64,000 nt of DNA, taken from NCBI GenBank assembly GCA_001792895.1, contig MARA01000029.1:186001-250000 (forward strand), written 5' to 3'. The DNA is from Lentinus brumalis (Eukaryota; Basidiomycota; Agaricomycetes; Polyporales; Polyporaceae). Each line of letters starts with the position of its first letter. Within the stretch, counting starts at the first letter, position 1. The position numbers were made by a program, and so were the translations under genes. Of this stretch, positions 10,082 to 57,098 are shown one piece after another. The notes beneath the pieces were generated by a model that was not told the origin of the DNA, searched no databases, and saw nothing but the letters and a program-made list of their open reading frames with translations.

Positions 10082-10153
10082 CACTGCAAGCATGGCCCCA
10101 TTCTGCACCGGGCGATAGCCGGTCGATAGTGGCGAGCAGGGTTAACCTATCGG
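10082..10153 (+). repeat. Left 72-bp terminal inverted repeat (outer element)
   Basis: All 72 bases match the reverse complement of 57027-57098. Identity stops immediately inside, at CCGG on the left against TCGA on the right. Confidence 0.93.
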
Positions 10154-10682
10154 CCGGCTATCAGCCAGTTATCAGCCAGGCCGATATTAAACCTATTCGC
10201 CGGCCGCGACCTGCCTATCGGCCGGTGTTATAGGATTCCCATTGCCCGACTTATTGACCATGTAATAGCCGGCTTACAGTCATCCATTAGGAAGTACTTA
10301 TAGTCGGTCAATAGTCTACCTATCGGCCGGTGCACCAGTAATACTATCGGCCTGCTATCGGCCCCTTACAGCGCCGGGCGATAGCAGCCTCTTTGTCCGC
10401 CTATCGACCAACCGCCGCCCGGCCATTGTCTTGGCCAATAGCCGGTCAATAGGTGGATTATATGTTGACTAAAGACCGCCTATAAGCCAGGTTCCTAGCC
10501 AATCGACAGCTTAACTGCCGGCCGACTTTCAAACGCCTATTACCTCCGCTTATGGGTTGCCTATTGCACCAGTCAATAAGCTGTCCATAGTTAATCAATA
10601 GGTAACATATTACACCGTGCGATAACTGGTCAATAGCCGGCCGATAGGTTAACCCTGCTCGTCGCTATCGCCCGGTGAGCGA
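10082..10682 (+). repeat. Left subterminal block of CTATCGGCCGG-type repeats
   Basis: About 600 bp are filled with variants of a short near-palindromic motif (CTATCGGCCGG, CCGGTCAATAG, CCGGTCGATAG). The inner edge (about 10620-10678) is an inverted, diverged copy of the outer terminus, so the block is itself flanked by inverted ends. It has no coding capacity. A diverged copy in direct orientation lies at 56486-57098. By analogy with CACTA subterminal repeats, it may bind transposase. Confidence 0.85.
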
Positions 10683-10779
10683 CCATGTAATCCACGGGGC
10701 GACACCCGCCTCAATCCATAATCTGACAAGTACTTCAGTAGCTTGACTAACCAGACGCCTAACCGTGCTTACCGCACAA

Positions 10780-12250
10780 CTCTCGTTCGTGTCTCGTTCT
10801 GAGTGGGCTTGTGCGGAGAACATGCGGCGAACTTCCACGCAGAACACGCAGAACTGAAGACTGGACATGACAAGTCACCGCTCACCGCAAGGGGTGCCTC
10901 CTCGGCATCGCACAACACAGTGCAAGAAGTAACAGCGCGAGACAGGACACCACAGCAAATAGTGCGGGTCAGCTACACCTCACGCAACAGTGCAAGAAAG
11001 GATTACTCGGCACGAAACAGGACTGCGCCATATCAAACTGCGCAAGACAGGACTTAACTGCGCAGAACAGCACCGGGACACGCAAGGCCCAGTCTGCGCC
11101 GGACCTGCCCAGACGAAGCAGAACCTCACCAGACGAAGCAGAACCTCACCAGACGAAGCAGAACCGCATAGGACCACGCAGGACCGCATAGGAGTTCGCA
11201 TAACCGCACCAGACGAAACAGAACCGCATAGGACCACGCAGGGCCGTTCAGAACCATGCAGAACCGCATAGGAGCCCGCATAACCGCACCAGACGAAGCA
11301 GAACCGCATAGGCCCACGCAGGATCAGAACCCCACGGCACCGCCCCTTCGCACGACCTCGCACGACCTCGCACGACCGCATAGGGCCGCCCGAGATCAGG
11401 CAAAATCAGCGTCGGAGCACATACTGACCGTCTCAGACGACACAGGGGAAACCATTGGGCCGCCCCCGCGACCACTCAAGACTGGCCTCGTGACGAACAG
11501 CCGGAGGCTAAGCCACTTGTGACGATGCAGGAACCGCAACGACAAATAGTCACGGCACAACCGCACGAGACTGCCCTGTTCCGCTCAAGACGCCGCCCGA
11601 GAACTCCCTCAACGACGCAGGGAAGTCCGCGCAACCGCACAGGACCGCTTTGCTCCACTCCACGCGCCCTGACCTCTACATATGCCATTCCGCTCAACAC
11701 AGCCCCACGACGGGCCGACGTAGAAGTCTCTGGATCCGCAGAAGCTGCTGAAGACGAACACCGCAGCCTGTTTGCGACATCGCAAACCGCGCATGGTAAT
11801 CCACGGCCACGCACAGATCGCTCAAGACCCCGCTTGCGTCGGACCAGCTGCGGCAGCTCCAAGGACGCACAAAAGCTTGCCTCAGCAGCACGCGAGTTTG
11901 GCCCGTTTCACTCAAGACTGCTGCAGGACATCGCTCGTCGACGAAGACAGTTCCGCAAAACCGCCAGAGCAGCGGAAAACGAACCCCACACGACTGTTCG
12001 TAACCGTGTATGACCGCGCACGGTTGACGCAGGAGTTCACAGAGTGATCTGTGGCCGGGCACACCTACGTATTCTCGGCAGAGATCCTTACTCCGCACGT
12101 CCGCACGATGGTCCGCTCTTCTCGTGACTGTCCGAGCGGAGACGGACAACGCACGAAGGCAGAGGATAGCTCGTTAGAGGGGATGCTCAGTCCCGGCAGC
12201 ACGGAAGGCCTTCAGAGCAGCGCAGAAAAGCCCGCATAGTCACACGAGAC
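10780..12250. repeat. Left GC-rich subterminal array (CGCAGGACC-type)
   Basis: The plus strand is dense in motifs such as CGCAGGACCGCA, GCAGAACCGCATAGG and CACCAGACGAAGCAGAACC. A 21-bp unit repeats directly near 11108-11160. The region is C/A-rich on the plus strand, and the right-hand counterpart (55390-56420) is the same kind of sequence in reverse complement. Long open frames here are low-complexity artefacts. Motif density falls off beyond about 11950. Confidence 0.75.
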
Positions 12251-15250: not shown

Positions 15251-15272
15251 CAGCAGAGGAGTACGTGCAAGA

Positions 15273-18200
15273 TTAGGAGGATTGAACGATCTGTACATTA
15301 TACCATACTGCATACCAACGCAATCGCCATCGTGTTTTCTCACCGTGCCCAGCGTGCTTCATGGCTCCGCTCGATAGTGAAGTGCGGCAAGCCACCTTGT
15401 TCGTCAGGCGACATGTAGACATGACATGGACCGAGGGATCGCTCGCTATGTCTATACGGGCGTCAGCATTGCATTCGCTTGGAACAACATCGAGGGACAT
15501 ACCCTGTCCAGTGACCGAACGGCGATACACTCGTGGCCGATGTCCGCCGGCGTCAGCACCAATGACGCGAAGTGCGACCGGATCTCCTCGAGGGTGAGGA
15601 CGTGGGGCTTCGTCTTGAACCGGTTGTAGACCAGCCACATGTCCAGGTCTTCGAACTGGCGGTAGGGATCGAGCTGCTATCGGAGAGGTCGTGGATAGAC
15701 GAGAAGACCGGGCCGCAAAGCACTGTGACACGCGCAAGTAGTGCTTGATACACGTCCCGGGTGAGTTTGACAGAGTTGTGTTCCGAGAAGGGCAGCTCTT
15801 CCGGCTCAGCTTGGGGTGTAAAACAGAAGCTCGCGAGACGAGGGTTGCTCCGCGCGGCGTCCCGGAACGACTTCTTGTACGCGGCCATCATAGCCACGAA
15901 CGGCGGATCGTCAGGCCACTCGGAGGTAGCCATGAGCCACCGGAGGTTCGCGCCGATGTAGAAATACCGCATGAACGTGAGTGGCATGTCGTCTGGAGGA
16001 TACTCTGTCAGGATGTCGCCGGTAACAATAGAACAAGGTACGTACTTGTCCTGCTGTTGGTATTCAGATGCTGCAATATTCCGTTGAAGCGTTCGAACGG
16101 GAACGCCCACCAAGCATGGACTGGCCCGAACAGTTCCAAACATTCGCGGAGGTGAAGGGAAAGATGATGATTAGGGACAAGCGGATGCTTGAACGTCTCG
16201 GTCAGCCCGGTGAGGTATTGCAGCATGTAGTTGTCGAACTTCTCCGCCCGTGTCTCATCCATGGTCCGTCGAGTTGCCAGATCCACCGCGCGCACGAGAT
16301 CCAGGAAGTTGTTGAGGAGAGATCTCTGCCTTTCGGTCGCATTCGGTCCTCCCCAGAGTCTGACGAGAGTGATAGGGAGGTTCACGAGGCACCCGGTACG
16401 CCATTGGTCTGCTTTCAGCTTCCCGTGAGACGGACTGCCGAAGTTCTTGGGGGCGTGTTGCATCCAAGAGGGAACTACAGTGTTAAGGATATCCCTTCGG
16501 ATGATACCCAACGTCTCCTGGTCCAGGATACGGAACTTCGAAATGTCGAACTGATCGCGGACAAGACGGAAGTCCTGTATAGAATCTTCGAAGACAGGCG
16601 GCAGTCGAATTACGCGACCCACGTCCTCCTTGTACTGCAGAAGCAGTCTAGTCAGTCGTCCTTGGTTGTGCGGAATGGACCTTGAATATACTCACCCATG
16701 CGATGAGACTCTGGATGTATTCGCGTTTGGTGAAACCAGTAAAGGGCACCGCGCCGTTCAGTTCAGCAACAGCTGCAAGATATCCCTTCCTCACTCTGTC
16801 GAGCTTCTTTTCCGACCCCTCTTTGACGAAGGTGACGACGTTGTCCAAGAACGTCTTCTGCTCTTCGGGTGAGTGTGGTCGAACCTTGCTAAAATCGGAG
16901 GACTTGTCCTTGATGTCGACTCCCCAGAACTCTCGACAGTGATGGCGAAGTTCCCCGAGGAACAGATTGTGCATGGCATCGACCAAAGAGAAGCGAGTCG
17001 GATCCCAGTAGGGCAATCGGAGCAGTTCGGACCATCGAACACCGTGCTCCTTGAAAGCCGCGTCTCGTTCTGCCTCAGTCTTCGCCTCGTGCCACTCGTC
17101 GGCGCAAGCCTGGTGCTGAGCCCGCGTTCTTCGCGGCCACGTCGAACGTCGCAGGTTCTTGATCTCGTTCTTAGGAAGTTGACAGAACGAGCAGAAGTGT
17201 TTCTTCGATGAGTGTCCAGCGAACCCGGCGGCCTTGCGCAAGGCTGGCAAGTCGCAAACCAGGGGAATCACAGCCGCCCGAACCAAGAGGGACGCCTCGT
17301 CGAGTGCGGAGGTGGACAAGAAGATCCCGCGGTGCCACAAAACCAGAAGCTCGTCGACGAGGGGTTGGAGGAAGTGGTTCAATTGATGCAGTTCGGGCTC
17401 GTGGGGCCCAGGAATGATCCCCGCGAGGTAAATGTTCTCGGGGCGGTAGCGGATGTCAGGAGGAAGGTTCAAGCAGGCGAGATAAATTCCGCCCACAGAG
17501 TGCGACTTTCCTGCCTTCTTGTTTCCGTATGGGTTGAACCAGTCGATAAACAAGGAGAATACGAGATGTACCGAGCCGTCAGGTTGCTGCGAGAAGGGAG
17601 TTCTGCCGTCGGGTCCGATGAAGTTGCGCAAGACAGGCGCATCCCAGACGTCCTTCCACCGCGATCTGGGCTGCGGGGCCGGAGACTTCCATGCACCGCG
17701 CGCCATGGCAGCGAGCTCGGGTCTCTGGAAGATCTCTGCAAGCCAGGCATACATGGAGCGATAGGGGAAGAATCGAATGGGATCGTAACGGACAACCACA
17801 CGGTCCCCTTCGCGCGTCTCCTGCCGGACGACGAGGCGTTCGCCGCAAACCTTCTTATCTGTTTCGCGGAACGTGCAATGGCCAGGATACGGTTTGTTCG
17901 GCTTCTCAGGGTTCGGGGCGTACGTCGCGCGACACTTCGGACAAACGGCATGGCGGACGATCTCCGGCTCCAGGTCGAGCTTTTTCAAAATGCTTCTGAT
18001 GTCCTTCGGGATCTCGTTGAGCATCTCAAACTGTGCCGGGGTGAGAGATCGAGGCATTCCGGAGGTCATGTTGGTCCACATGAATGCGCCATACAGAATT
18101 GCCTGAATGCCAGCGAGAACGAAGGCCATGTCGTACTGGGAAGCTTCAGCCAGAGCGTGGAGGACAGCGGCGAGGAGGAGAGCGGCGAGGATGAAGTGTT

Positions 18201-19175
18201 CCTTAGTCTTCGCTTGGGCGCCGGGGAGTGGACCTTGGCGACATCAGAATCAGTGGTGAACCATTGTAGCATGTGCGGAAGAACTTACCCACTGTGATTG
18301 GCATTGGACCCTTCTTTGACGTCGATGTGGACGATTCGAGGTAACGGATTATATAGAACTCGGTCCAAGCGTCATCCCGCAGCTGGTCCAAATACTGCAG
18401 GTGCGAATCTGCTCTCTCGATGAGAGCATCGAGACGACGGTCAAGGTCGTTGTCCCCGATGGGGTTGAGCTCCTGCAGGTAACGCCGTTGTTCGCGTATC
18501 TTCCCTCGGACACCTCGGTATAGTGAGTTCTGCTCCCTGTCACCTAGCGGTTCCGGAGCAGGGTCGGACAGCTTCGTGGATGGAGGAGTAGAGGAGAAGT
18601 CGAGGCACAGTCGCGCCGGGATGAGCTTGCAATGAGCTTGGAGGGACGACTCGATTGTGCTGAGGAGTTGTAGGCGAGTCTTGGTCTCGTGCTAGTTCGT
18701 ATCACCACAAATTAACAAGGCCTGCTGTGCTGAGGTCCTGAGCAGGGACGTACCTTGCCCGGTTTCGGTCCCACGTTACCACCGCCAATGGCCTCTGATA
18801 TCGGACCGTTGTCAACGCTCTGAAATGGCCGGGTTTGAGCGAACTAGTCAGACAACAAATTGCATTACTCACCACTTGGCTGCCAGTCGGACCTTGCATT
18901 GAGGCCGTGCCCCTCTTGTCCTTCTCGCCGACCCGGAGGGACGAGGAGGGCTCACCAGGCAAACCCATGCTCGCGAGCAGAATGGTGTTCTCCACCGCGG
19001 CCTGGTTCCGTAGTAGATCGAGATCGCGATGCCTCTCTATGGTTTTGGCGGTATTATACAGTCTTCCGCGATGCTCTCGATGTCCTCCAGTCCAGACACA
19101 GGTAGCGCACTGGCTGCACAGACAGAGGTATTTGCCTCGCGGCACCGGCGGGGGGTCCGAGGCGGGATCTGCCAT
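15273..19175 (-). CDS. Plavaka-family transposase
   Basis: This is a DNA transposase of the Plavaka group, widespread in basidiomycetes and related to CACTA Tnp2. The start MADPASDPPPVPRGKYLCLC is at 19175 and is followed by a zinc-binding N-terminus (CSQCATCVW, then H..H). The next exon carries EQRRYLQELNPIGDNDLDRR. The largest exon (about 18160-16680) has a CPKC..HC..C cluster, VFSLFIDWFNPYGNKKAGK, GIIPGPHEPELHQLN, CDLPALRKAAGFAGH, YWDPTRFSLVDAMHNLFLGE and ends LIAWV. Later exons have KADQWRTGCLVNLPI, GPVHAWWAFPFERFNG and FMRYFYIGANLRWLM. A 55-bp intron near 15680-15735 restores the frame into QLDPYRQFEDLDMWL. The protein is roughly 1,000-1,100 residues and all frames can be joined, so it looks intact. 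Together with the CACTG ends and 3-bp duplication, it is the likely mobiliser of the 47-kb element. Confidence 0.88.
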
Positions 19176-19669: not shown

Positions 19670-21300
19670 CTATGATGGTGTCAGTGTACCGGTGAGGTGA
19701 TTATTGCGGGCACTCACAAACAAGTGAGCAATGATCGTCACAATCACCAATGCAAGGAAGTCTGATGCTGCGCTCTTGACGTCCTCCGGAGTATCGGTCA
19801 TATCATGGTCAACACACCCTCCTGTCGGGTGGAGAGCTGTGAGCTCCATGGCCGGAATCTTCATGTCTGGTGTTGCCGCCACGAGGGACACTCCAGAAGA
19901 GGCGGGCAAAATTGCTAGTCGGGCCTCCGGTGAAGACGACACCTGAGACGGAATCTGTGCTGCCAAACTCTTCGTCTCAGGAACATGGAACCGTGGAACC
20001 TGGAAAAATCGTACAATTATGCTCAGTCGAACATCGGCAGAGAGGAATAGAAGACGCCTACTGCATCCGCTGAGGGAGAGTCCGAAGATCCGGACGAAAT
20101 ATCCCAAGACTCGGACGTGGCACCCAGCTCTGCATCTAGGGAAGCGCCAGAACGGTCACTGCTAGACGTGGAATCAGGAAGGGCGCCTTCCTCGCCTGAG
20201 CTGGGCGAAGATGACCGCATGGATTGTACACCGTCCAGCACGACTTCGAATGGATTGGGAAGGTGTAGCAGTTGGCACGAATTGTCCACGCCGGCTGGAA
20301 CCGGGTGGACATCTTGAGTGTGCTGGAGAACTGCAGCTGTGTGCCGAGTGTCTTCTTGCAGCATTGTAATTGTCTCGTCCGTTTTTCCGGCCCACTCTTG
20401 GATAGATGAGAGTACCGTGTTGACGGACTCTACCGCGTGCTTGCTCCCCACCACCTGCGACTTCATGATGGTAGTATCCAGCTCAAGTTTTCGCAGTCTG
20501 TCGTTGAGGTCTTGAATATTGTCCTTAGATTGCGTGCGAAAGTTCTCTAGGGTACGGCGCTCGAGGTTAAGATTTCCTATAGATGCGATGGTTAGTACGG
20601 AGTTGAGTCAACGAGGGTGACAAAGCTTACCTTGCGCTTGTCGGTAAGAGAGCTTGACTGGTCGGATCTCGTTCTCGCAATCCTTCCTGACCTTCACGAG
20701 TTCTTCCTCTATTTCCTCGACACGTTTTTCGAAGGATTTCTAGCCCGACAGACTCACTTTCTGCTGATGCGCATATGTTGAAGACGAATGCTCACCTGAG
20801 TGTGTCGGATAGCGATCACTGCTTTGTAGAGTGCGGCATTGCAAGAGTTCAATCGTTCGAGCTCTTGCAGGGCTTCGATATACTCGGCCTCCGAGTGGCT
20901 CTCGGCGTCGTCATCTTCGCTATCGCGAACGTATGTAAGTTCTTCCTTTCACAGCGCACAGAACATGACTCACGCAACCCGCTTGAGCAGATCTGCAGCC
21001 CTCACAGAGAGCTGATACTGGGGCGGACCCCGGGGAGAGATGGTCGAGAGCGGTGGATGCCGATGTTCCACGCTCGTGAGCCTGAATGATTCCTCGACCA
21101 AGCTCGGCCTGATCTTATAGTCTTCCTCTGACCCATAGGCTGAATGGTCTGCATACGTGCCAGTAGATGTCCCACAAAGTGAGGCCATGGAAGAGGAGGT
21201 AGAGGAGAGGGCGGTTGGCTTCGCCGCCACGACGTCTGACACTTGTGGCTGGTCAAAGCGATAACAAAGCAACTTGATGACCTTCGGCTAATTAATGATG
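19670..21300 (-). CDS. Coiled-coil protein with C-terminal membrane anchor
   Basis: Five exons can be followed on the minus strand. The N-terminal exon (21272-20970) is serine-rich. It is followed by EAEYIEALQELERLNSCNAA and FEKRVEEIEEELVKVRKDCE, then by IQDLNDRLRKLELDTTIMKS, which together suggest a long coiled coil. After that come an acidic, serine-rich segment (SMRSSSPSSGEEG) and a last exon ending near 19670. That exon contains a hydrophobic stretch FLALVIVTIIAHLFV about 15 residues from the C-terminus, suggesting a tail anchor. I do not recognise a family. The 5' end is not resolved. It is one of several membrane-anchored cargo proteins in the outer element. Confidence 0.5.
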
Positions 21301-21516
21301 CAGATGCGGCTATTGACCTGTGCACGCAAACAATGAGGACCATGGAAACAGTGCACGCCGCAACTCACAGTAGTCTCCGAAAGGTTTTATGATACAAGTA
21401 ACGGGGATCAATTAAAGTAGACTACATGGATAACTAGATAAGAGAAAGTCATTCGATCATGCGACCTACAAGCTATCTGAACAGACGGTTAGCTCAGACA
21501 TGCGGAACGTCTGTGA

Positions 21517-22616
21517 TTAGGGCATACCTTCAGCTTCGCGTCTTTCGAAGTAATCCCGACGAATCCACGACGGATCCTTCCTCTTAGGTGTCTTCGAAAG
21601 ATACCGACCATCCTCTCTTCGGTAACCAACGTCCACAGGCTTCCAACGCGGCGGCAGCCCTGGACTAGCAAGCCAAATCCATAACTGGGAGCGATCTGGG
21701 TCGACGGGATGGCGATGGTAGAAGAGGTCGCCAAGATAACGCTTCTCCTCGACGAAGTGAGGTGGCTGTGGGATGGGAGACGCGCCCTTCGTCTGGAACC
21801 AAGCCGTCTCAATAATCTGACTTGGATCCTCGCTGTCTGGATGCGAATGGGTCTTCCTGATAAGAAACTGCACGATGCTCAGACGTAGTCATACGCCGAC
21901 AGAAACAGTTTACGTACCAGACTCGTCGGCTGCACAGACCGCCTTGTACCCGCCCTGCCAGTACCCGCCCTGCCAGTGCTCGCCTCTTCTGCATCTTCCT
22001 CCGGTTCAGAGTCAGAAAGCTCTGTCAGGGGAGAAGGAGGCGCCTGCTCGACGCCATCCTCGCTGTCACCAGTAGAACTTCCGGGCATATTGCTCAGCAC
22101 CTGAGAGGCAGAAGGAGGCTGTTCGCAACCAAGGAGTGAATGCGGGGGTGGGAGACACGGTGTGATGACAAGTGTACGGAGGCTCGACTTCGGTCGCGGC
22201 AGCGGTGGGTTTAAAAGCGCATATGAGCTCATCGCCGAGGGATCTGCAAAGCCGGAATGACGAATAAGCCCATCGCGGCGCGAGTCGACGTCAGACGTTG
22301 TGGACATCTTGTCGTCGACGGGAGAGCTGGAGACCGAGATAAGCGGTTGGCGGCCACAGGAGACACTTGCAGCGTACCTCCGGAGTCGCACCGGCGAGAA
22401 CCTACGTGCGATGGTGGGCTCCACCTCATGGTGGAAACCCGGCGGACGCGGGACCATCAGTTCCAGGTTCGTCGTACGATGTGCCCGCACAGTCGTAGTG
22501 GCCGAGAAGACGAAGCCTGGGCGGGGCTTTGGTCGCTGTCGAAGCCGTCTTCCATAGCAGGCCCATAGACAGGAAGAGAGGGAGATGAGCACGACAGCGG
22601 CCAGCACTGCAAGCAT
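21517..22616 (-). CDS. Single-pass membrane protein, paralogue A
   Basis: Two exons (22616-21918 and 21867-21517) join in frame across a 50-bp GTACGT..CAG intron to give 349 residues. The ATG at 22616 opens directly into a membrane segment (MLAVLAAVVLISLSSCLWAC) followed by a basic patch GRRLRQRPKPRP. The middle is proline/serine-rich and acidic (LTELSDSEPEEDAEEAS). The C-terminal 90 residues form a compact domain with AWFQTKGASPIP, LGDLFYHRH and WKPVDVGYRREDGRYL. The same pattern recurs in the gene at 23194-24455, so the two are paralogues. The topology suggests an N-terminal anchor with a cytosolic or nucleoplasmic C-terminus. No family name is known to me. Confidence 0.65.
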
Positions 22617-23193
22617 CCGGAACGAAGAAGTCAAGGACAGTGGCGTATGGGGTGACGGTAGGGGAATGAGAGTGCTGCACCAGTTGTGCTGCTTGCGCCT
22701 CAGCTCATTGTCCTCAAAGAGCCAGTTACATCCTTTGCGTCGTTCTTGGCCTTATGTGGCGAGCACAATGGAGGACAATGCGAGCAAGGACGAGGCGATA
22801 CACGCTTCAGCGCTTAGAGCCGGTCGGGGCGGTGCGGTTTGACGCGGTTTGACGCTGGTCAGGGCGGTTCGACGCTGGTCGGGGCAGATCCGTGGCTCAT
22901 TTCGACGGAGCACGCACGCGATACGCACAAGGGGTTTCCGGCATAGATTCGGTTGTATTAGGGCTCATCGCATAGCATACAGGAATACAGAAACAGTGTC
23001 TAGAAAGGAGACGCACGAGAACAGAAAGGGTAGAGGAAAAGACGGTAGACATGAATAGAAGAAGGTGACGCGTGTGACGCATGCTCCGTTGGATGAGGAG
23101 GCTTGGTAACGAAAGGGACTTGGCTCAGATGGCCGCGAGCCTACTTTCGACGGGTGCGAATGGCTGTCGATGCGGTGAGCGAGAGACAACGGC
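22617..23193. other. Intergenic, short G-rich tandem repeat
   Basis: Around 22822-22890 a short GGTCGGGGCGGTTTGACGC-like unit repeats about three times. No gene is seen. Confidence 0.5.
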
Positions 23194-24455
23194 TCACGGA
23201 CAGGATAACTCACGGACAGGAGTCGATGCCTGGGAAGATGCCGCGCTCTTCTGTTCAGCACGCACGGTTTTGTTATACTGGGAATCCTTGACCCAACTCG
23301 GCTCCTGCAAGACCAAGGTGACGTTCAGCCTGTAGCCATCGGCACGGCGGTACCCTTTGTTGACAGGCCACCACCCGGGACGGCCATCGATGCCTTCCAC
23401 GCGCAGGAACATCTGATAGTTGGGGCGGTCAAATCCCGTAGCAATGTGCAGGAATATATCGCCGATGCGAGGGGCCTCCGCCAGCGACGGCGACGGCGGC
23501 GGAGCATTGATAAACCCTGCGCCCCGAGTGGTGAACCAAGCCATATAGACGATGTCACCGTCGCTCGACATACGAGCTTTCCTGTCGCGCTTGATCAGGC
23601 CGCTGTCGACCTATGGCCATGAGACATGAATACTTTAGGCCTGCAAGGAATTGCTAGAAAATGCTCACCTCCATCGCATCGTCAACGTCATCCTTGACGT
23701 CGTCTTGGGCTGCGCCCGCTGCCGGAGCCAGCTGAGAAGGGGGAGGAGACGGGGACCGAGATGATGGCAAAGACAACGAGGCCGAAGATGGGGATGTAGA
23801 GACCGACGGAGAAGGGGACGGGGACGCGATCGGCAATGTACCGACGGACGTGATCGAGAGAGGACCAGGTGTAGCGCTGCGCGTACTGCTCGGACCAGGT
23901 GTAGCGTTGCGCGTACCGCTCGGACCAGGGATAGCTTTGTGCTCACGTTCTTTCCCTTTGCTGTGCGCCACTGGCTCTTGATTGAAAGACGGGGTGCCAA
24001 CTGGAGTGGTCGACCGAGCCCCGACAGCACGGGAGCGAGCATCCTTACGGGATGAGACAGTAGGGGGCGGAGTCATCGGGAGCGCGACTTGACGGCACTG
24101 GAGTGGGCTCGGCGGGACAGAAACACGCACACCTCGAGCTACGGTCTTCGATAAGCCTGCTTTCGCCACGCCTTCCCCGACAGGCTCAGCAGTACTAGTA
24201 CGCGTAGTAATTTGCCATTAGATTTGACAGCTCCTTCACAGCAATGTGCGCATACCTTGTGTCCTTGCCCATCCGTGCCGCTGCAGCGACGTCAGCGGCG
24301 ACTTGTGTTGCGGCGACCGGAGCCACCGGGTCTCGCCCAACAGCACGTCTACGCGCATCTCGAGCCTCGCCACCAAACATCCGGGAGCATAGATAGACAG
24401 CGAGGACGAGGTAAAGCAGCGCCACGAGAGTCGTGAGGTCGACCGTCACCTCCAT
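23194..24455 (-). CDS. Single-pass membrane protein, paralogue B
   Basis: Three exons (24455-24256, 24194-23669, 23610-23194) join in frame to 380 residues. The ATG at 24455 is followed by a membrane segment LTTLVALLYLVLAVYLC and a basic stretch RDARRRAVGR. The middle is proline/serine-rich with three near-identical repeats reading GPSGTRNATP, GPSSTRSATP and GPLSITSVGT. The C-terminal domain has YMAWFTTRGAGF, IGDIFLHIATG and WWPVNKGYRRADGYRL, matching paralogue A. The target duplication of the nested KDZ element ends only 27 bp upstream of this ATG. The insertion probably separates the gene from its own promoter. Function unknown. Confidence 0.65.
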
Positions 24456-24474: not shown

Positions 24475-24482
24475 GATATGCT
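24475..24482. repeat. Target site duplication GATATGCT (left, nested element)
   Basis: GATATGCT directly precedes the CACCAGTGG terminus and recurs at 39569-39576. Eight-bp duplications are known for Zisupton elements. The last base could instead belong to the inverted repeat, giving 7 bp. Confidence 0.8.
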
Positions 24483-24885
24483 CACCAGTGGTATCCAGAC
24501 TTGTAGTACAAACCCCCACAGGTATGGTACAATGGTTGTGCTGTATGTGGGGGATATTCTGTACAAGACCCTTGTACAAGAGCCATAGGATTGTACAACC
24601 AACCACTTGTAGTACAAGTGGGGCTTGTATTACAAGTGGTCTACTGCAAAGGGCAGCTAAATGCGGACTTGTACGAAGGATTGTAACCCACATAGAGCAG
24701 CCTATACAGAGCTTGTACGGAGCTTGTAATAGATGTGATCAGCAGATATAGATCTGATAGATCTGGCGATGGGAAATCTAAGTACCAAGATCCTGGCTCT
24801 TGTAACCAATTGTAACATGGTCTGGGGGCTATATGGAGGCAGGCTCTGTAAAAGTGATTGTAACCATCCATGGGTGTCTATATTC
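24483..24885 (+). repeat. Left inverted terminal repeat (nested KDZ element)
   Basis: Matches the reverse complement of 39166-39568 throughout. It is rich in CTTGTAC/GTACAAG and TTGTAAC motifs, which may be transposase-binding sites (inference). Confidence 0.9.
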
Positions 24886-26100
24886 GGACAGAGAAAGCTG
24901 GAGCTTGTACATGGGGTCCAGACCTTGTAATGCGGGTTGTAACCGGCCGTAGCGATCCCGATTCGGACAGGAAAAGCTGGAGCTTGTACATGGGGTCCAG
25001 ACCTTGTAATGCGGATTGTAACCGGACATAGCGTCCCAATTCGGACAGAGAAAGCTGGAGCTTGTACATGGGGTCCAGACCTTGTAATGCGGGTTGTAAC
25101 CGGCCGTAGCGACCCCGATTCGGACAGGAAAAGCTGGAGCTTGTACATGGGGTCCAGACCTTGTAATGCGGGTTGTAACCGGCCGTAGCGATCCCGATTC
25201 GGACAGGAAAAGCTGGAGCTTGTACATGGGGTCCAGACCTTGTAATGCGGGTTGTAACCGGCCGTAGCGATCCCAATTCGGACAGGAAAAGCTGGAGCTT
25301 GTACATGGGGTCCAGACCTTGTAATGCGGATTGTAACCGGACATAGCGTCCCAATTCAGACAGAGAAAGCTGGAGCTTGTACATGGGGTCCAGACCTTGT
25401 AATGCGGGTTGTAACCGGACATAGCGATCCCGATTCGGACAGAGAAAGCTGGAGCTTGTACATGGGGTCCAGACCTTGTAATGCGGGTTGTAACCGGCCG
25501 TAGCGATCCCGATTCGGACAGGAAAAGCTGGAGCTTGTACATGGGGTCCAGACCTTGTAATGCGGGTTGTAACCGGCCGTAGCGATCCCGATTCGGACAG
25601 GAAAAGCTGGAGCTTGTACATGGGGTCCAAACCTTGTAATGCGGGTTGTAACCGGCCGTAGCGATCCCGATTCGGACAGGAAAAGCTGGAGCTTGTACAT
25701 GGGGTCCAGACCTTGTAATGCGGGTTGTAACCGGCCGTAGCGATCCCGATTCGGACAGGAAAAGCTGGAGCTTGTACATGGGGTCCAGACCTTGTAATGC
25801 GGATTGTAACCGGACATAGCGTCCCAATTCGGACAGAGAAAGCTGGAGCTTGTACATGGGGTCCAGACCTTGTAATGCGGGTTGTAACCGGACATAGCGA
25901 TCCCGATTCGGACAGAGAAAGCTGGAGCTTGTACATGGGGTCCAGACCTTGTAATGCGGGTTGTAACCGGCCGTAGCGATCCCGATTCGGACAGGAAAAG
26001 CTGGAGCTTGTACATGGGGTCCAGACCTTGTAATGCGGGTTGTAACCGGCCGTAGCAATCCCGATTCGGACAGGAAAAGCTGGAGCTTGTGCAGGGGGTC
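24886..26100 (+). repeat. Left 79-bp subterminal tandem array
   Basis: About 16 head-to-tail units each contain GGAGCTTGTACATGGGGTCC, TTGTAATGCGGGTTGTAACC and GATCCCGATTCGGACAGG. Units are 79 bp. A shorter variant with GGACATAGCGTCCCAATTC recurs at about every fourth to sixth unit. The last unit at 26081 is diverged. The array is open in all three minus-strand frames, which creates long artefactual ORFs. Confidence 0.92.
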
Positions 26101-39568: not shown

Positions 39569-39576
39569 GATATGCT
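39569..39576. repeat. Target site duplication GATATGCT (right, nested element)
   Basis: Second copy of the 8-bp duplication at 24475-24482. Confidence 0.8.
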
Positions 39577-42715: not shown

Positions 42716-44026
42716 GAATATGTGCGTGTGCTTCGCTTAACCACATGTACTCACGTGCCATCCATATAACCACCGCTGATTTCCCGTGAGCGTCGTTACC
42801 ACCTGTAGCGAGGAGGAACCGGTCTTGCTCGGCATTATAATTCGCCTGAGCATCTTGTGAGACTGAGTATAAGAAGAACTATGTCAAAAGACGTACCGCT
42901 ATAGCCAAAATTGTGTCGTACGCTGGACGCGGGATCAGCGCTGATTCGTGGAAGGTGACGTCCAACTCACGCTTGGGCGCAAAGGTTTGGTGTATACGTT
43001 GGTTTTGGACGTTCCAAAGGGCAGCACGGCCCACCGTGCTGCCTCCGAAGAGTGCAAGCCCGCCGTGTACAAGGAGGACAGGTACAGTGCGTTCACCGTT
43101 TGTATCGTCCACAAAGGAGGCTATACAGTCTCCCTTATCCAAGTGGTAGAGATTGAAGCCAAAGCCCATAACCGAAAGGGCGATAATTGAGCCCTTTGGC
43201 GACACACTCGATCCGCCTCTGTACAACGAAAACATGAGGCAAACATGCGATAACACGTCGCGAGCACTCACATGTCGCTGAACGGCAGAACGTGAATTTG
43301 ACTCCAGTCTACGGAGTTATATACTCTGCAAAGTTGTGAGAATTGTGAAAGCTCTACTCGGTGAGACGCTTACACGATGCCATGATGCATGTAAGTAACC
43401 ACCACGACCGAACGATGAACTCTGGTCTTCGTCCAGTGGATACCCATGACGATGAATTGCTCTTCAGCGTTCTTAGAGTCCTTAGGCGGACCCTGCAGGT
43501 CAGTAACGTGTCTCCATACGTCTGCAAACGAGTTCGTACAGGATGTCTGACATATGATATAAAGTGACGTACCGGTACCGTTGCTCAGGTGCTGCCACAC
43601 CCGAACTTCCGGCTGGGCGCCCGACACTAGTTGACTTCCTTGCGTAGCGAGTCGTTCTACCGGATAGTCGTGTGCCCAAAAGCCAGTGGCCTCAGCAAGT
43701 TCCTGCTTATTAGTCAGCCCCGCACTTTCGTCGCCCACTATGTATCGGAGCACAATACTCACCGAGCCCAATCGGAGCACGGCAATATAGCCATCGCTCG
43801 ACCCGCACAGAATGGTGTCAGACCGTCCAGGGAGCCATTCCAGAGCTAAGAAGGGGCAACGGCTCCCCGTGTACGTGTGAAGGAGCTTGTGATCAGCCAC
43901 ACGCCATACGTAGACCTTGGGGTCCTCCATGCCCGCAGCAGCGATATATGTCCCATCAGGACTGAACGCAAGTGCGGACACACACACCTCCGTCAAGGCC
44001 GCGTTGCAGTCGAGCAGTCTCTTCAT
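42716..44026 (-). CDS. WD40-repeat protein
   Basis: WD40 proteins form beta-propellers that scaffold complexes. The ATG at 44026 opens MKRLLDCNAALTEVC, followed by repeat strands LAFSPDGTYIAAAGMEDPKV and YVWRVADH, FLALEWLPGRSDTILCGSSD, and WAHDYPVERLATQGSQLVSG and VRVWQHLSNG. After an intron come DVWRHVTDLQGPPKDSKNAE, VVYNSVDWSQIHVLPFSDM, SIIALSVMGFGFNLYHLDKG, VHGGLALFGGSTVGRAALWN and DRFLLATGGNDAHGKSAVVI, then a donor at about 42745. All frames join, so the gene looks intact, but the last exon is not resolved. Propeller-only proteins of this kind are common in Agaricomycetes. It is transcribed divergently from the SUN-domain gene 178 bp away. Confidence 0.72.
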
Positions 44027-44204: not shown

Positions 44205-45303
44205 ATGGTCTTCACCAGTCGCACAGAATCTGCTTCGTCTGCTCCCTTCCAGGATAGATTTGTGTACGAAGAGACTCCAGCCCCGAGTACGTTATCAGTC
44301 TATGACGATAAGTAGTCCCCTGCACTAATGCCGACGCAGGGAGAAGGGCGAAAACAGGCTCAGCGATAGCTGAGGAACGCTTTCCAGCTGTTGACTCAGC
44401 ACAAGCTCTGAAGATTAATCGGTCATCTCCTCCAGCAAAGCGTACCATGGCCGTGGTTGCCCGAGTGGCTCAACTCATCGGGCTGATCCTCGTTGTCACT
44501 TGCTTGGCCGCCATCGGGTTGGCCAACTCATCCGCGCGTGGAACTGACTCCGTTGCGGACAAGACCTCTTTGGGCATGTCCTCGCCCCTTCCCGAGCCTC
44601 TGCTGCCATCTTCTACCCTTACACCGGATCTAGAAGCATACGTTCAACGTCTGGTGTCGACTGCCCTGCGTGATCCAGTCGGGAGGCGTGACTTCGCCCT
44701 CTTACAAGACGGCGCCGTCGTGGTATCCAAACTCACGTACCCCGCCCCTTCACCTCCATCATCTAAACGATCCAAACCGATTGTAGGATCTTCTTTCGGT
44801 CACAGGGAACGCAGCGCCCCAGAGGCCGCTCTCCGTGACGACCTTCGCGTTGGAGAGTGCTGGTTAGTGCGTAGCAGTTCGGCACAGCTAGGCGTTGGCC
44901 TGCAGAGCTTCGTTGCACCGACCCACATAACCATCGACCACATCCCTCTCGAGATAGCGGCAGACATCGGCGAGGCTCCCAGAACGATGTTCTTGTGGGG
45001 CCTGGTTGAAGGAGCTGGCAACCTCGCGATTTACCGCAACTTGACCGAACGGGGGAGGTGCTGTCCGCAATCGTCGATCGTCAAGGTCCTCTCCATCGCG
45101 ACAACTCGCCCTATGTCCTCCTCGCTAGCTTTGACTACAACATCTATGCCCCCTTCCACATTCAGACATTCTCTATCAGCTCAGTCGCTATCGAGGAGGG
45201 TATGTACTTCGGAGTCGTGGTCTTGGAAATTTTGGAAAACTGGGGTGCGGAGACGACGTGCCTGTATCGCATACGTATTCACGGCAACAAGGTAGTGTTC
45301 TAA
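44205..45303 (+). CDS. SUN (Sad1/UNC-like) domain protein, one frame break
   Basis: SUN proteins sit in the inner nuclear membrane and link to KASH proteins. Exon 1 is 44205-44286, then a 53-bp intron, then exon 2 from 44340. About 60 N-terminal residues precede one membrane segment, AQLIGLILVVTCLAAIGLAN. The SUN domain follows: YPAPSPPSSK, ALRDDLRVGECWLV, AQLGVGLQSFVAPTHITIDH, PLEIAADIGEAPRTMFLWGL, YVLLASFDYNIYAPFHIQTF and VLEILENWGAETTCLYRIRI then HG. The frame breaks at a run of five G at 45051-45055; a sixth G restores it. The topology matches a fungal SUN protein with the SUN domain in the perinuclear space. It is an unexpected cargo for a transposon. Confidence 0.8.
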
Positions 45304-45559: not shown

Positions 45560-48500
45560 ATGAGCCACTCTGGCGAAGCATCAGCGCCACCGGCAGCCGC
45601 CCCAGGGAGCAGGGCTCCTAGTAAGTTATAGCCGAAGAGAGACCGTTCTTTACTGAACTTGTTCCGTAGTCATGACCGGCCGGTACAAGACCGTCTCTAT
45701 ACATGGACAGAAGCGTCCAGCAACGGGGCCATCCCTGCACGTTGCAGTCGACAACACCAAAGTTCCCCATAGACATACCAAGGACAATGCCAAGCCTCTG
45801 AGGGCGAAACCATTCTTCAAGGCGAGCTTCTATCGATCTACGAATCCGTTCATCTCTCTGACGCAGCAGCCTTAGAATACGCCTAGAGAAGATCCCGAGG
45901 CTCGGAAGGAACGACTTGCTCAAGCAGAAGAGTCCTCAGCCTCGGAAGAGGAAGGTCCGCAGCAGAAGAGAAGAGCGTCGGCTATCCGAGGAGGCCCGTC
46001 CGGCAGCAGCTCTCGCGCCTCCGGGTCTCCGTCGACCGCCTCCAGCACGGTTGCACCCTTTGCACTCGCTAGTGGCACGTCTGCGCCAGCGCCGCACATT
46101 CCAGCTGCTCCTCCTATTCTACACCCATCCAACCCGGCACCGGCGGCTATGCTCACCATTCCCATCTTGCCATCTGCGCCGTCGCAGCCAATCCCCTTGC
46201 ACCTCGTCCACCCGAAGCTTCTTCTGCGGGATCTGGTCCAGTTCCTCCGCACTCTATACTTGCAGGAGCGGCAACATATCATCGTATGTGTCGGCCTTTC
46301 CTGTCTTTTGCGTGCGCTGACCATTCTTGCAGACGGACGAGGGTGCGATGAACTTATGGACGACGCTCGATGAGCAACAGCGCGTTCACATCGTGGAACT
46401 CTACGGACAAGCGGCTGCGACGGCCCAGCGACAGGCCACAGACGCAGAGTTCGCAGCCAAGGTGCAGCCCAAGGCATCGAAGAAGAGCAAAGCGGCATCT
46501 CAACATGAGACCGTGAATACGGCCGCTGCTCCCCAACTTCCCGCGGAGCCTAGAGCTCCTCTCGTGCATTCGGCAACCCAATTTGTGATACGCAACGCGT
46601 CTGCTTCCAGTTTGGGCTCGCACGGGTCTCAAGCGAGCTTTACGACCGACGGACATGTTCAGACACCTTCGTTCGTAAGTGCGGCTTCGTCGGAGAGCCT
46701 TGGCTTGCAGGGTATGGAAGAAGTCATCAATTACACTGCGGACGTTGTCTCAGTGGTACGGAAATCTTGTTTGTTAATGCTGAATGTTGCACCTGACTTT
46801 CTTCATGTATTCAGCACGACGGCGGATCCACCAACACCTCTCATGCGAAAGAGAAGGGAAAGGTGCGTGTACGGATCACCTGTGACACTTGCATATACTG
46901 AGATCATGCAGTCGAAGGCACCCCAGATGGCTTATGAGGACGAGGCAGATGATGAAGAAGACGCCATGGATGACATCGACGGGTACGATGTTGAGCTGCG
47001 CGAGGAGACGAACGCTCTCAGTGGTTTGGAGGTATGCACTCGAAGTCTTGCCTCCCTACTTTCCTATATATCCACACCCATCCAAACAGGAGTGTGATTC
47101 TGGCGCCAGTACGGTCATGGACACGGACTTCGCTCCCCAGGAGATCGTTCAGGGGACCGCATCCATGGGTGCAAACCCCTCCGCTTCCGGATCACAGTCG
47201 GCTCAGCCTGGGGCCGCAGGATATGCCCCGTTCGACCCGGAAATTATTCTGATGTTCATGCGCAAGATGGACGGATTCGGGAAAACTATCCAGGCGCAAG
47301 GCACATTCATTCGTGAACTGCAAGAGGGCAATCGCGCGTTCCAGTGTGTACATTCGTTGCAGTCTCCTCATCCTCTCGTCTAATATACGAACAGGGAGGC
47401 CGTCTTAGAAGAGCTGCGAACATTGCGTACTGGCGGACCTCAGCCAAGCCCGCAACAGGCTCCGTCGCGTGCTGCTGCTGCAATTCTGAGGGTCCAGATG
47501 CGCTCTGCCAAACTCCGCGGGCAGGAAGTTCTACTCACTCCTGAGCAACTTGACACCGAGCACCGCAACCGTCAGATAGTGAGTATGCACTGGCAAGCAG
47601 TCGTCTTCTCGACCTTTGCTGACCACTTATCCAGCATCGAATGCACGCCCACATGCTGTCACTGTTGAAGATCAGCGACACGACCGAAGTCGCGATCTCC
47701 CATCCAACGCTTACAGAACAACAGGTCGCGGATTACCATGAAGGCAGGCTCCAGTGCACTCCCGAGAAGTTCGTCATCGACTTCGTTCGCAAGTGGAAGT
47801 CATTCTCGCTCAACAAGTTCGCCCGGATCGTCGCTATCCGATGCTTCCAGAAGAAGGCGGCCGGGGGAGCATTCGCGATGTTTCAACCTCCTGAGAAGAT
47901 GCTCACGGAGGAGTTCCTTGGTGCACTCATCGATCAATATATGAAGACGCTGCGACGCGCTTACCGGGAGGGCATCAATCCCAAAACCGAGGCGGAGAAG
48001 GCAGAGTTCAGGCGTCGCTGCGCAAGGAACGCCCGCATGGGGACGGTGAGTGTGCATGTGTCTTCCCGCTTCGTGATGACACTGACGCGCAGTGGAACGA
48101 CTATAGCTCTTCCAAGGCCGGCTGTTTGTCGTCGTCCATATGGGGTACGGCAGGCACAGCGTCTTCTTCGGGAAGCTGGCCGCCAGCAATATGAGCGGCG
48201 ACGAGACCGACGGTCCTACGGTCAAGCACCCTCCAACCTATCGCATCATCATTGCTGACTGGCAGAGCGTCGAATTGCGAGCGTTCCTCTGGGCTTTGGA
48301 CGCCAAGTACGTAGGCTACTGGGAGAAGCCTCCGAAGAAGCGCCGCACTCCAGGGAACCCAGTCCGCGTACGGGATGTGGATACTCGCGAAGGCGTCACT
48401 CGTACCCTGCCCGGAGTCGCGCCGGTGGGCTTGTGGCGCAACTGCTACAATGACAAGTGGCTTGAGACACTTGCCGACTGGGAGATTGAGATCCTGGAGA

Positions 48501-48583
48501 TGATCAATGAGGATTACGACTTCACGTTGGATCCTCCTGCTGCAGCAGCTGGGCCGTCTGCAGCTGGACCGTCTAGTCGGTGA
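45560..48583 (+). CDS. Transposon-associated unknown protein, multi-exon
   Basis: The start MSHSGEASAPPAAAPG at 45560 is followed by a GTAAGT..TAG intron and a segment MTGRYKTVSIHGQKRPATGP. Frame breaks occur between about 45795 and 45890. The later series is regular. A proline/serine-rich region ends VHPKLLLRDLVQFLRTLYLQ. It is followed by MNLWTTLDEQQRVHIVELYG, an acidic segment AYEDEADDEEDAMDD, and FDPEIILMFMRKMDGFGKTI. Next are RNRQI then MHAHMLSLLKISDTTEVAIS, EKFVIDFVRKWKSFSLNKFA, and a final exon with MSGDETDGPTVKHPPTYRII, VELRAFLWALDAKYV, PPKKRRTPGNPVR and GLWRNCYNDKWLETLADWEI, stop at 48583. The final module resembles an unnamed Agaricomycete family often found with transposons. Function unknown. 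Confidence 0.55.
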
Positions 48584-51303: not shown

Positions 51304-53880
51304 ATGTCTCGCCTCCCCCAACACGCCCAGGCTCTTGCTCCTCCCGCTGTGTCCCGGCTTCGTGACGGGCAGAAACCTGCTCAGTCTTCCCCAGCCCGCT
51401 ATAAGCGCGACACCGTAGACTCGACGCTGACCTTCACCCTTGCAGAGGCTCGAGGCGCGCTTCGGGACACCATGCGTGGCAAAATCGACATTCCCCCTAA
51501 CATCAAAGGTTTCACGGATCTGTTCGTGAAAGACTACTACCCTGCACTTAAGGAGAACATCTTCTCAGGAGCGCCGAAGTTCTCGACTGAGGTACAGATG
51601 TACAAATGGATTGTGAGTGGTTACGCCTTGTCCGTCGCGCTCTCGCCGTATAACTACTCGTTTCCTATTGTAGACCGACACGATCAACAACTCCAGCATT
51701 GTTGATAGCCGGAAGTTCGTCTGCGCATCGACACCTTACAAGTCCGACCGAAACGACGCTACCCGTCAGGCAGTGGACCTTGGTTTGTACCCCACTGCGT
51801 TCAGACCGATCAACGAGGGCGACGGCGAATACAACCGACGCATCAACTGGTCGCGGATTGATCTGTCTATCGAGTGCAAGGTTCACTCCACTGACCAGGA
51901 TCCATTCGACGACATGAGCGTCGACGGTCAGCCACTCGCGGCTGACCGGAAGAAGGCGCTGGGTCAGATCCTCACATACGTCGAGAACGTGTTCGTGCAT
52001 CAACATCGTACCCACCATTACATGATCCTCTTCCTCGGCCACTATGCTCGCATTGTCCACTTCGACCACTCGGGGGTCTACTCCACCATCAAATTCAACT
52101 ACAAGACCCGCGGCGCCATCCTCTCCACGTTCCTCAGCCGCTACTCTCACTACAACGCCGTACAGAGAGGGCACGATCCTACCGCTACACGTTTGGAGCG
52201 TCGCAATCCGCTCATGGCTCAAATGCGAAAGTTCGGACAGGCCAAGGCGGATGAAGCCCCGGACGACTACGTGCAGAGAATGTTCAACAACTCGCTCGAT
52301 GAGGCTTGGCCGTGGCACAAGCTCCAGGTGCACGTACAGCCGAAGAGTGGCGATCCGGATCCCCCGCGAGGTCGTCTACGCTCATCTCAATCAGAGCGGG
52401 TCACACGTTCCTTCGTAGTCGGGAAGCCTCAGTTCGACGCTGGAGGTGTTGTGGGTCGGGGTACTCGTGGTTATGTTGCGGTTGAGGTCAACGCTAGAGG
52501 CAAGTTGGTTGGGCCGTTCGTCTACCTCAAAGATGCTTGGCGTGTCGACCACCCTGGGATAGAGCGCGAGGGATGTGTTCTCGAGAAGCTCAATCAGCAC
52601 AAGATCCCCTTTGTCCCCACCCTGGTCTGTCACGGCGATCTCGAAGGTCAAGCCACGAAGTCTCAGGACGCTTGGGCCCAGCGCAAAGCCAAGCGTCCTC
52701 AAACCAAGCGGACATTCAAGCGGCATCAGCACTACCGCCTGGTGGTCGCGGAAGTTGGGAGACCGCTGGAGGAGTTTGGGTCAGGGTTCAACCTGGTCAG
52801 CGCGATCTTCTGTTGCCTCTTAGGTGAGTCTTCCAACGCCACGGGTGCTATGTATGATCCTGATGTTAGGGGTCACAGCGCATCAAGCGGCCTACGAGAA
52901 GGCTGGGATTATACATCGCGACATCAGTTCAGGCAACATTCTCCTTCATAAAGGCTTGAACGGCGTTTGGACCGGACTTCTCAACGATTGGGAGCTCTCA
53001 AAACAGGTGAACGCACTCGCGGCTCGCCAACCTGATAGAACAGTACGTATGCTTCTGACTGAGTAGCATCTATGCTAAATATCACCTTTCCTCACAGGGT
53101 ACTTGGCAATTCATGTCGGCGAGAGCCCTCAACAATCCTGAAAAGGAGATCGTGGTGGAGGATGAGATCGAAGCCTTCTTCCACGTCCTGCTGTACCATG
53201 CCGTCCGGTTCCTCCCTCACAACCTCAACCCAGACCACGTACCTCAATTTCTCCAGGACTACTTTGACGGCTGCTGCACGATGGGCGGCGAGTACCGCTG
53301 CGGCCTGGCGAAACTCACGGCCATGGAGAATGGTTTCATCACGATCACAACCTACAACTCGGCGCCTGCCACGCTGAAGTTCTTGCAACGTGACATGAAG
53401 ACCTCCCACGTCTTGGACGGTCTTGTCTCACGACTTCTTCGTTCCTTCAAGGAGGTTTACGCGCTCCACCCGAGCGCTCCGCCTGTTCCGCAGCCAAGTT
53501 CTGTCGAGACCGCTGAGGACGTAAACGTCTTCTGGGCTGCATTGGGAGCCATGTCCAATGTGGACCCAGTGACGCCGAGGAACACTGACGAGGTTCACTC
53601 GAAGCAGCCGCAGTCGGTTGTGGTCGCCTCTGATGACGGACAGGCACCGTTGTCATTCAAGGAGCACCGCCATGTCATCAAGCTCTTCACTGAGTTCCTG
53701 AAACGGACGGACTGGCCGGCGAACGACAAAGGCGAGGATCTTCGGGTGAAGGGCATAAAGCGCGCGAACACTTCCCAGGGAGCTTCGGGCAGCACCAGCG
53801 AAGGGGAGAGCAAGTCCATGAAGCGTCGGCTCGACGATCCTCACCCTGCGCCTGGTAGCAGCAAGAGGAGTCGCATTTGA
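51304..53880 (+). CDS. FunK1-type fungal protein kinase
   Basis: FunK1 kinases are a fungus-specific, strongly expanded group related to protein and aminoglycoside kinases. Exons 51304-51612, 51674-52823, 52870-53042 and 53098-53880 sum to 2,415 bp and give 804 residues with no break. The N-terminal regulatory part has FTDLFVKDYYPALKENIFSG and WSRIDLSIECKVHSTDQDP. The N-lobe includes GPFVYLKDAWRVDHPGIERE. The hinge reads HQHYRLVVAEVGRPLEEFGS. The catalytic loop is AGIIHRDISSGNILLH and the metal-binding motif is LLNDWELSK, DWE in place of DFG as usual in the group. GTWQFMSARALN follows. The C-terminus ends in basic KSMKRRLDDPHP and KRSRI, suggesting nuclear localisation. It lies 3.2 kb inside the right end of the 47-kb element. 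Confidence 0.9.
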
Positions 53881-55389: not shown

Positions 55390-56420
55390 TTCTTGCCTGC
55401 TCCGGCGTTTCAGGCGGCGGCGAGTGTACATGCGATTGCGCCAGGCTGGTCGACGCCGTCTCGGGCTGCCGTGCGTGCGTGCGTGTGTGCGTGCGTGCGG
55501 AGAGCGGGACGGTCCTGCGCGGTTCTGCGAGGTCTTGCATGACTTCGTGGGGCTCGTCTCCACCGTCTCGGGCTGCCATGCGCGTGCGAGTGTGGTAGTA
55601 CGGAGAGCGGGGCGGTCCTGCGTAGTCCTGTCAGGTCTTGCGAGGTCTTGCGTGACTTCGTGGGGTTCGTCTGCGCCGTCTCGGGCTGCCGTGCGTGCGT
55701 GCGTGCGTGCGGAGAGCGGGGCGGTCCTGCGCGGTTCTGCGAGGTCTTGCATGACTTCGTGGGGCTCGTCTCCACCGTCTCGGGCTGCCGTGCGCGTGCG
55801 AGTGTGGTAGTACGGAGAGCGGGGCGGTCCTGCGTAGTCCTGCCAGGTCTTGCGAGGTCTTGCGTGACTTCGTGGGACTCGTCTGCGCCGTCTCGGGTTG
55901 CCGTACGTGGTCCCTGAACGGAAGGAAGAGATCTTGGCAACTTGCGTGGTTGTGCGGACTCTTCGCACCGTCCTGCGGTCCGAGCGTGCTGTTCTGTGCT
56001 GTTCTGTGCGGCCCTGCGTAGCCCTGCTCAGCCGAGTCTGTGCGGCTCTGTGAGGTCCTTTGCGGACCTGAGCTGTGCGGTTTTGCTCGGTTCTGCTAGG
56101 TCTTGCGTGGTCCTGCTCGGTCTTGCGTGGTCTCTCTCGGTTCTGCTCGGTCCTGCTCGGTCCTGCGTGGTTCTGTTCAGTCGGATCTGTGCCGCTCTGT
56201 GCCGCTCCGCTCGGTCCTGTGCTGTGCCGTTCTGCGTGGTTCTGCTTGGTCTTGCGTGCTCCTGCGTGGCTCTTGTGCGTTCCTGCGAGGTTCTGGCGGT
56301 CCGGCGCGGTCCTGTGTGTCCCTACGGGGCTCTGCGAAGTCAGACGCGGTCGTGCGGATCTCGGCAGCACAATGACCGCTGCCCTAAGTCCAGGTGGTCA
56401 GGACTAGTGCGCAGCCCACC
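55390..56420. repeat. Right GC-rich subterminal array (GGTCCTGCG-type)
   Basis: G/T-rich on the plus strand, dense in GGTCCTGCGTGGTTCTGC-like motifs. This is the reverse complement of the motif class at 10780-12250. Long frames here are low-complexity artefacts. Confidence 0.75.
55498..55910. repeat. Higher-order tandem repeat, A-B-A-B
   Basis: Units start with CGGAGAGCGGG at 55498, 55601, 55710 and 55813, with lengths of about 103, 109, 103 and 95 bp. Units 1 and 3 share CATGACTTCGTGGGGCTCGT. Units 2 and 4 share a different middle. The real period is therefore about 212 bp, present twice. Confidence 0.8.
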
Positions 56421-56485
56421 GTTGTCCGTGGTTCGGTGGCGTCCCCTGCGTGTTAGACGACCCGAGTCGCGCGCGCTCGGTCCCG

Positions 56486-57098
56486 TTTCGCATCGGGCAA
56501 TAGCCGCTCGACAGTGGCGAGCGGGGTTAACATATCGGTCGACTATTGACCGGCCTATCGGGCATGCTTATAGTTTAGCTACAAGCCGGCCGCCAGCCGC
56601 CCATCGGCCGGTCCGAAAGGATTCCCATCGCCCGACTTACGGACCGCATAATAGTGAACTTACAGTTGTCTTTATTACCAGGCTTACAGCCGGTCAGTAG
56701 TTTACATACAAGCCGGTGCCCAAGAATAACTATCGGTCTATTATCGGCCTCCTATAGCGCTGGTCGATAGGCAACTCTTTGTCCGCCTATCGGTCAACTG
56801 CCACCCAACCATTGTCCTGGTCGATAGCCGTTCAAAAGGCGGGTTATTGGTTAACTCACAACCAACTACAAGCCAGGCCTCTAGCCGATTGACAGCTTAA
56901 CTGCCAGCCAACTACTAACTGCCTGTTGCCGGGCCTTGAAGTTTGACTATTCGTCCGGTTGATGGGCGCCCTATAGTCGGTCGATAAGTAACCTTTCGCA
57001 CCGGTCAATAGCCGGTCAATAGTCGACCGATAGGTTAACCCTGCTCGCCACTATCGACCGGCTATCGCCCGGTGCAGAATGGGGCCATGCTTGCAGTG
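56486..57098 (+). repeat. Right subterminal block of CTATCGGCCGG-type repeats
   Basis: A diverged copy of 10082-10682 in the same orientation. Shared landmarks are GGATTCCCATYGCCCGACTTA, TTTGTCCGCCTATCG and GACAGCTTAACTGCC, in the same order. Its inner edge carries a diverged copy of the terminal sequence. Confidence 0.85.
57027..57098 (-). repeat. Right 72-bp terminal inverted repeat (outer element)
   Basis: Reverse complement of 10082-10153 without a mismatch; ends ...CATGCTTGCAGTG. Confidence 0.93.

Follow-up and report, generated by a model that had tools for sequence, protein, structure and literature searches.

Fungal EnSpm elements, in the account of Kojima (2025, PMC12730594), combine CAC..GTG tips with a 3-bp duplication, a Transposase_21-type transposase and subterminal repeats. 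CACTA elements usually hold one or two ORFs, and enlarged En/Spm elements of 16–20 kb with four or five ORFs are noted for the red alga Chondrus crispus (PMC6431247, citing Kojima 2013). A role of TNPA in plant CACTA elements is also mentioned (PMC1636069). The Plavaka elements of Agaricomycetes carry TGT..ACA tips (2 bp) or CATCA..TGATG tips (2–3 bp) (PMC12730594). Discussion of giant cargo transposons in fungi has mostly concerned the tyrosine-recombinase Starships, of which one paper reports eight in a basidiomycete (PMC13066641). Within the literature consulted, whose scope excluded subscription papers and Repbase, neither a CACTA element with SUN or WD40 genes nor a giant basidiomycete CACTA element was described.

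Here, we describe an element from the wood-decay polypore Lentinus brumalis, contained in a window of 64,000 nucleotides (the whole stretch of DNA analysed, C59:186001-250000; C-numbers denote the 136 contigs of the 53.4-Mb assembly). It is very probably a giant DNA transposon of the CACTA/EnSpm type and belongs to a family with a five-gene backbone in this polypore and its relatives. Like CACTA/EnSpm elements, the window element and a sister on contig C1 have CAC..GTG tips, a 3-bp duplication, a Transposase_21 transposase and subterminal repeats; unlike them, they span 28–47 kb and hold five backbone genes, including SUN and WD40. The enlarged elements of C. crispus are multi-gene CACTA elements as well, but they are smaller and belong to another host kingdom. 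Starships are likewise giant, with a conserved mobilisation gene near one end and variable other content, but their captain is a tyrosine recombinase, in contrast to the DDE transposase and inverted ends found here.

Boundaries of the Element and a Nested Transposon

The ends and flanks of the window element comprise the following features:

10079–10081: left 3-bp duplication AGT (flank letters read)
10082–10153, forward strand: left 72-bp inverted end with CACTG tip (letters compared, assembly search)
10094–10675, forward strand: left subterminal unit, palindromic internally, a direct repeat (73%) of 56479–57061
56479–57061, forward strand: right subterminal unit
57027–57098, reverse strand: right 72-bp inverted end
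57099–57101: right 3-bp duplication AGT

The initial annotation described perfect 72-bp inverted ends of the CACTG..CAGTG form with AGT on either flank, and letter comparison found exactly this. Reverse-complemented, the last 72 bases (to 57098) equal the first 72 (from 10082), with mismatch from base 73, and the junctions read ..ATGAGT|CACTGC.. on the left and ..GCAGTG|AGTGAT.. on the right. Together with the subterminal repeat arrays of the CACTA/EnSpm kind that are present, these tips and the 3-bp duplication bear out the proposed assignment to CACTA/EnSpm. An empty site, suggested as a check, was sought with both flanks in this one assembly and none was found: the right flank (1,302 bases) is present once, and the left flank (1,382 bases) occurs once, with an additional 73% partial match on C1 and no empty allele. 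Within the left flank, the stretches 4473–5088 and 5675–6378 have copies on this contig, 94–96% alike and approximately 10 kb to their left. The right flank holds two 515-aa open frames (57762–59306 and 61876–63420) that are alike by eye, have no Pfam match and are probably ordinary host genes.

The initial annotation also proposed that the whole 47 kb moves as one unit. Instead, the 47,017 bp are divided between a CACTA element of 31.9 kb and a KDZ transposon of 15.1 kb inserted within it:

24483–39569: nested KDZ transposon, 15,087 bp, tips CACCAGTGGTAT, 7-bp duplication ATATGCT on both sides
35082–36652, forward strand: KDZ transposase exons, Pfam CxC2 and KDZ

The KDZ transposon's tips and the ATATGCT duplications at 24483 and 39569 rule out a single 47-kb unit. 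Without the insertion (15,087 bp and one duplication), the CACTA element measures 31,923 bp, a size near that of its sister (28,224 bp). The exons of the nested element match KDZ at E 2.5e-19 and CxC2 at 8.6e-35, and its inverted copies (24482–25293 and 38759–39570) are 97.8% alike, with 79-bp tandem arrays of unequal length (15.5 and 5.2 copies) inside the inverted ends. Its duplication is 7 bp long, as against 8 bp for Zisupton. A homologue of the KDZ gene on C1 matches window positions 34861–38011; this gene, at C1:2631396-2634493, lies outside the C1 sister, 1.7 kb past its end, and its adjoining position is taken as coincidence.

The Transposase

The transposase gene, T, lies near the left end of the element:

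15500–19166, reverse strand: transposase gene T (the span is that of the stretches matching the C1 element, with approximate intron positions)
16651–18243, reverse strand: T core exon, Transposase_21 (Pfam, E 1.6e-17)
16011–16691, reverse strand: next T exon, weak DUF4218 (Pfam, below the curated cut-off)

An intact-looking transposase exon inside the element was thus correctly recognised, whereas its attribution to Plavaka was not upheld: the core exon matches Transposase_21/tnp2, and no Plavaka match occurred among the exons scanned. The tips (CACTG or CACGG, with 3 bp duplicated) likewise differ from the published TGT..ACA and CATCA..TGATG forms, although Plavaka elements share a related transposase clade and mushroom hosts. 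When the DDE triad and the C(2)C and H(3-4)H motifs were sought in T alignments, D234, D331 and C351-x2-C354 were found to be conserved. The predicted fold of the T core matches RAG1/Transib structures; the T sequence itself retrieved from the PDB a single meaningless match (E 0.89). No Pfam match to a tyrosine recombinase was seen in a selection of the window ORFs, in keeping with the earlier view that a TIR-bounded element of this kind is distinct from the Starships.

A Conserved Five-Gene Backbone

Besides T, four genes of the window element are homologous to genes of the C1 sister, and neither the order nor the orientation of the five differs between the two elements. A kinase exon lies further to the right:

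20611–23610, reverse strand: gene C, two related copies (21520–21888 and 23197–23610), no Pfam match
42756–43981, reverse strand: WD40 gene
44312–45292, forward strand: SUN gene (Sad1_UNC domain; single hydrophobic span, residues 52–70)
47623–48580, forward strand: gene A, no Pfam match
51674–52948, forward strand: FunK1-type kinase exon (Pkinase_fungal, Pfam)

The SUN, WD40 and FunK1-type kinase genes listed in the initial annotation are all present, but the label of cargo is not supported for SUN and WD40, which accompany the transposase at many places in the assembly. FunK1 has no counterpart in the C1 element and, with the KDZ insertion, is an extra beyond the five-gene backbone. The hydrophobic span of SUN occupies residues 52–70 in the window and 79–97 on C1, and the protein matches SUN1/SUN2 structures at E of about 1e-6. 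For gene A, a model with a pLDDT of 75.4 gave 11 matches in the PDB, none at E <= 0.001.

Homologues of gene A come, among the matches listed and where the source is named, from polypores only. For example, gene A is 99% identical over 99% of its length to a protein of Polyporus arcularius HHB13444, and a stretch of the window SUN protein is 99% identical to a protein of the same strain over 44% of the query. In Lentinus tigrinus, SUN and A homologues are each found on contigs of 282,889 bp (locus tags 470550 and 470548) and 694,112 bp; in L. brumalis, each is found on a contig of 40,786 bp. T and A homologues are each found on further contigs of 26,429 and 17,805 bp. Because the reported contig sizes are equal, which is an indirect indication, the SUN/A and T/A homologues are perhaps linked on one contig in these cases.

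Across the assembly, 19 of 50 T matches had an E below 2e-50 and were retained as T places; the 31 weaker ones, which include fragments of these loci, were dropped. The corresponding searches gave 18 SUN matches at 16 places, 15 A matches at 15, 22 C matches at 16 and 25 WD40 matches at 16. A T place lay no more than 40 kb away from 12 of 16 SUN, 13 of 15 A and 14 of 16 C places, against an expected 2.8%. Seen from the transposase, 12, 13 and 14 of the 19 T places had a SUN, A or C neighbour, respectively, within this distance, leaving seven T places with no SUN nearby and four of the 16 SUN places with no T nearby. Of the 16 WD40 places, 14 had SUN at a distance of about 20 kb or less (read by eye), and the remaining two, both on C57, are weak. 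The complete set of five is present at 11 loci, 10 of them in three recurrent orders, as follows (signs denote strands):

T- WD40+ C+ SUN+ A+: C35, C104, C76, C46, C1:0.54 Mb
A- T- WD40+ C+ SUN+: C67, C52, C70
T- C- WD40- SUN+ A+: window, C1:2.6 Mb; C61 is alike but has no WD40 match
Rearranged five-gene locus: C65
SUN, A and WD40, no T within 40 kb: C78, C115
SUN, C and WD40: C1:0.03 Mb
T and C: C111, C16 (C16 is only 30.8 kb long)
T and A: C98
T only: C126, C102, C35:0.306 Mb
C only: C100
SUN only: C1:1.71 Mb

Over 13 loci, SUN and A scores rank together (Spearman 0.86, p 1.5e-4), as if the two genes were co-inherited. Since SUN and WD40 stand together with T, A and C at 11 loci, mostly in recurrent orders, they are not random cargo. 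An ordinary CACTA element with host genes captured by chance (Pack-type), in which SUN and WD40 are passengers, is therefore very improbable. CACTA gene capture has been published for plants (PMC8978399), and the window's FunK1 gene, unmatched in the C1 element, would suit such a process. It would not lead one to expect such constancy of gene content and order where the transposases have diverged so far: T at the other ten five-gene loci is 48–58% identical to the window's, except at C1:0.54 Mb, where two fragments are 65% and 49% identical.

The Sister Element and the Layout of the Ends

A search with the left 201 bases against the 53.4-Mb assembly gave four matches: the query itself, the right end, an inverted subterminal copy within the left end, and C81. 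The proposed search for the window end thus led to one further place besides its own copies, and a whole-element sister was recognised instead on C1. This sister (C1:2601476-2629699, 28,224 bp) has CACGG..CCGTG tips with TGA on both sides; its inverted ends of 112 bp are 99.1% alike, and its 499-bp unit, repeated in direct orientation, is 99.4% alike. Common to both elements, then, are inverted tips combined with a subterminal unit of 500–600 bp in direct orientation, the two units being approximately 99% alike on C1 and 73% alike in the window element.

The near identity of the direct units on C1, set against their age in the window, suggests that one end may occasionally be copied onto the opposite one. 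Direct units of a similar kind would also be left by a composite origin. On this account, two direct copies of a short palindromic element moved the intervening DNA by means of their outer tips, while the inner tips decayed. Both members do have the inverted outer tips and direct subterminal units that two direct double-ended units would give, and the inner tips of the window's direct units are decayed. Nevertheless, no stand-alone copy of approximately 600 bp was found in the genome with the right subterminal unit as query, and the backbone is conserved among members, so that any capture would have to be old, whereas the two units on C1 have stayed 99% alike. Repeated end-to-end copying also explains the layout, and we regard a composite origin as unlikely.

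Both boundaries and their duplications were read at two loci only, the window and C1; the remaining loci are assigned to the family by the linkage of their genes. At C1, C16 and C111, a distance of 2.6–3.0 kb separates the core transposase exon from subterminal arrays beyond it, and the near side of the C76 T locus has none. A search with the C1 array located its mate 28 kb away; for the members on C111 and C16, the opposite end is absent from C111:14,001-34,000 and C16:4,001-14,000.

Short Copies and Related Tips

Seven short-end loci, C81 and six others, were examined for 3-bp duplications, with 40 stretches as control. Short pairs with such a duplication were found at two of the seven, five loci having none, and in the 40 control stretches there were no pairs. 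The copy on C81 is 180 bp long with the duplication CGA, and that on C61 is 273 bp long with TGA and an overlapping weaker pair. A 458-bp reading at C61 was superseded by the 273-bp pair, and a 202-bp AGT pair at C1:2174727 failed the duplication test and was not counted. The other pairs with 3-bp duplications that the initial annotation had called for are accordingly the C1 sister (TGA) and the two short copies (CGA and TGA). As a possible refutation it had named ends scattered as unrelated MITEs that share no interior. This is not the case: related tips do occur in short copies, yet the C1 sister shares the interior of the window element.

A tip search gave 172 matches genome-wide versus 31 in the control. 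Some facing tip matches approximately 205 bp apart, for example C2:182027-182232 and C62:15666-15870, look like further short non-autonomous copies. Among the matches listed, the tip pattern was found at none of the C35, C46, C52, C61, C65, C67 and C1:0.54-Mb loci; these therefore either end in different tips or are no elements with boundaries of their own. Such observations bear on a further explanation, namely that T, C, WD40, SUN and A form a host cluster spread by segmental duplication and that the inverted ends belong to independent short elements. The commonness of tip-like sequences genome-wide agrees with it, as does the scarcity of demonstrated end pairs, which 10 of the 12 tabulated linked loci lack. 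However, where both ends are known, at two loci, the tips match each other and are directly flanked by matching 3-bp duplications, and single near ends recur at a similar distance from the transposase at C1, C16 and C111. We consider a host cluster highly unlikely and a bounded transposon family the better account.

Proposed Mechanism and Significance

In the transposon reading, the sites that T, a DDE enzyme predicted to fold like RAG1, recognises are most likely the inverted tips together with the dense repeat units of the subterminal regions. From the behaviour of the superfamily, we infer that the whole unit moves by cut and paste, in which T would excise the complete element and reinsert it through a 3-bp staggered cut. 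The family retains T together with C, WD40, SUN and A, and other content, here the FunK1 kinase and the 15-kb KDZ transposon, varies. TNPA is an accessory terminus-binding protein of plant CACTA elements; by analogy, A, C or both would most likely take this role. More speculatively, SUN, with one membrane span and a SUN domain, and WD40 may act at the nuclear envelope or ER, aiding the persistence or spread of the element.

Taken as a whole, this looks like a Polyporales family of giant DDE transposons that share a conserved set of genes, comparable to the Starships but powered by a DDE enzyme. Its gene set, including a protein of nuclear-envelope type, goes far beyond the known needs of cut-and-paste transposons and raises the question of why a transposon would keep a SUN-domain protein of this kind. 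Tentatively, and with slightly less than even confidence, we propose for Polyporales a giant DDE class with a conserved multi-gene backbone, in which SUN and WD40 serve the element itself, by nuclear-envelope tethering or by passage between the nuclei of a dikaryon, and in which the ends are renewed by copying in direct orientation. The 99%-identical direct end units offer a handle on such renewal of transposon ends. A RAG1-fold DDE family with a conserved module and members from 28 kb upward would indicate that cut-and-paste chemistry is able to sustain a Starship-like lifestyle.
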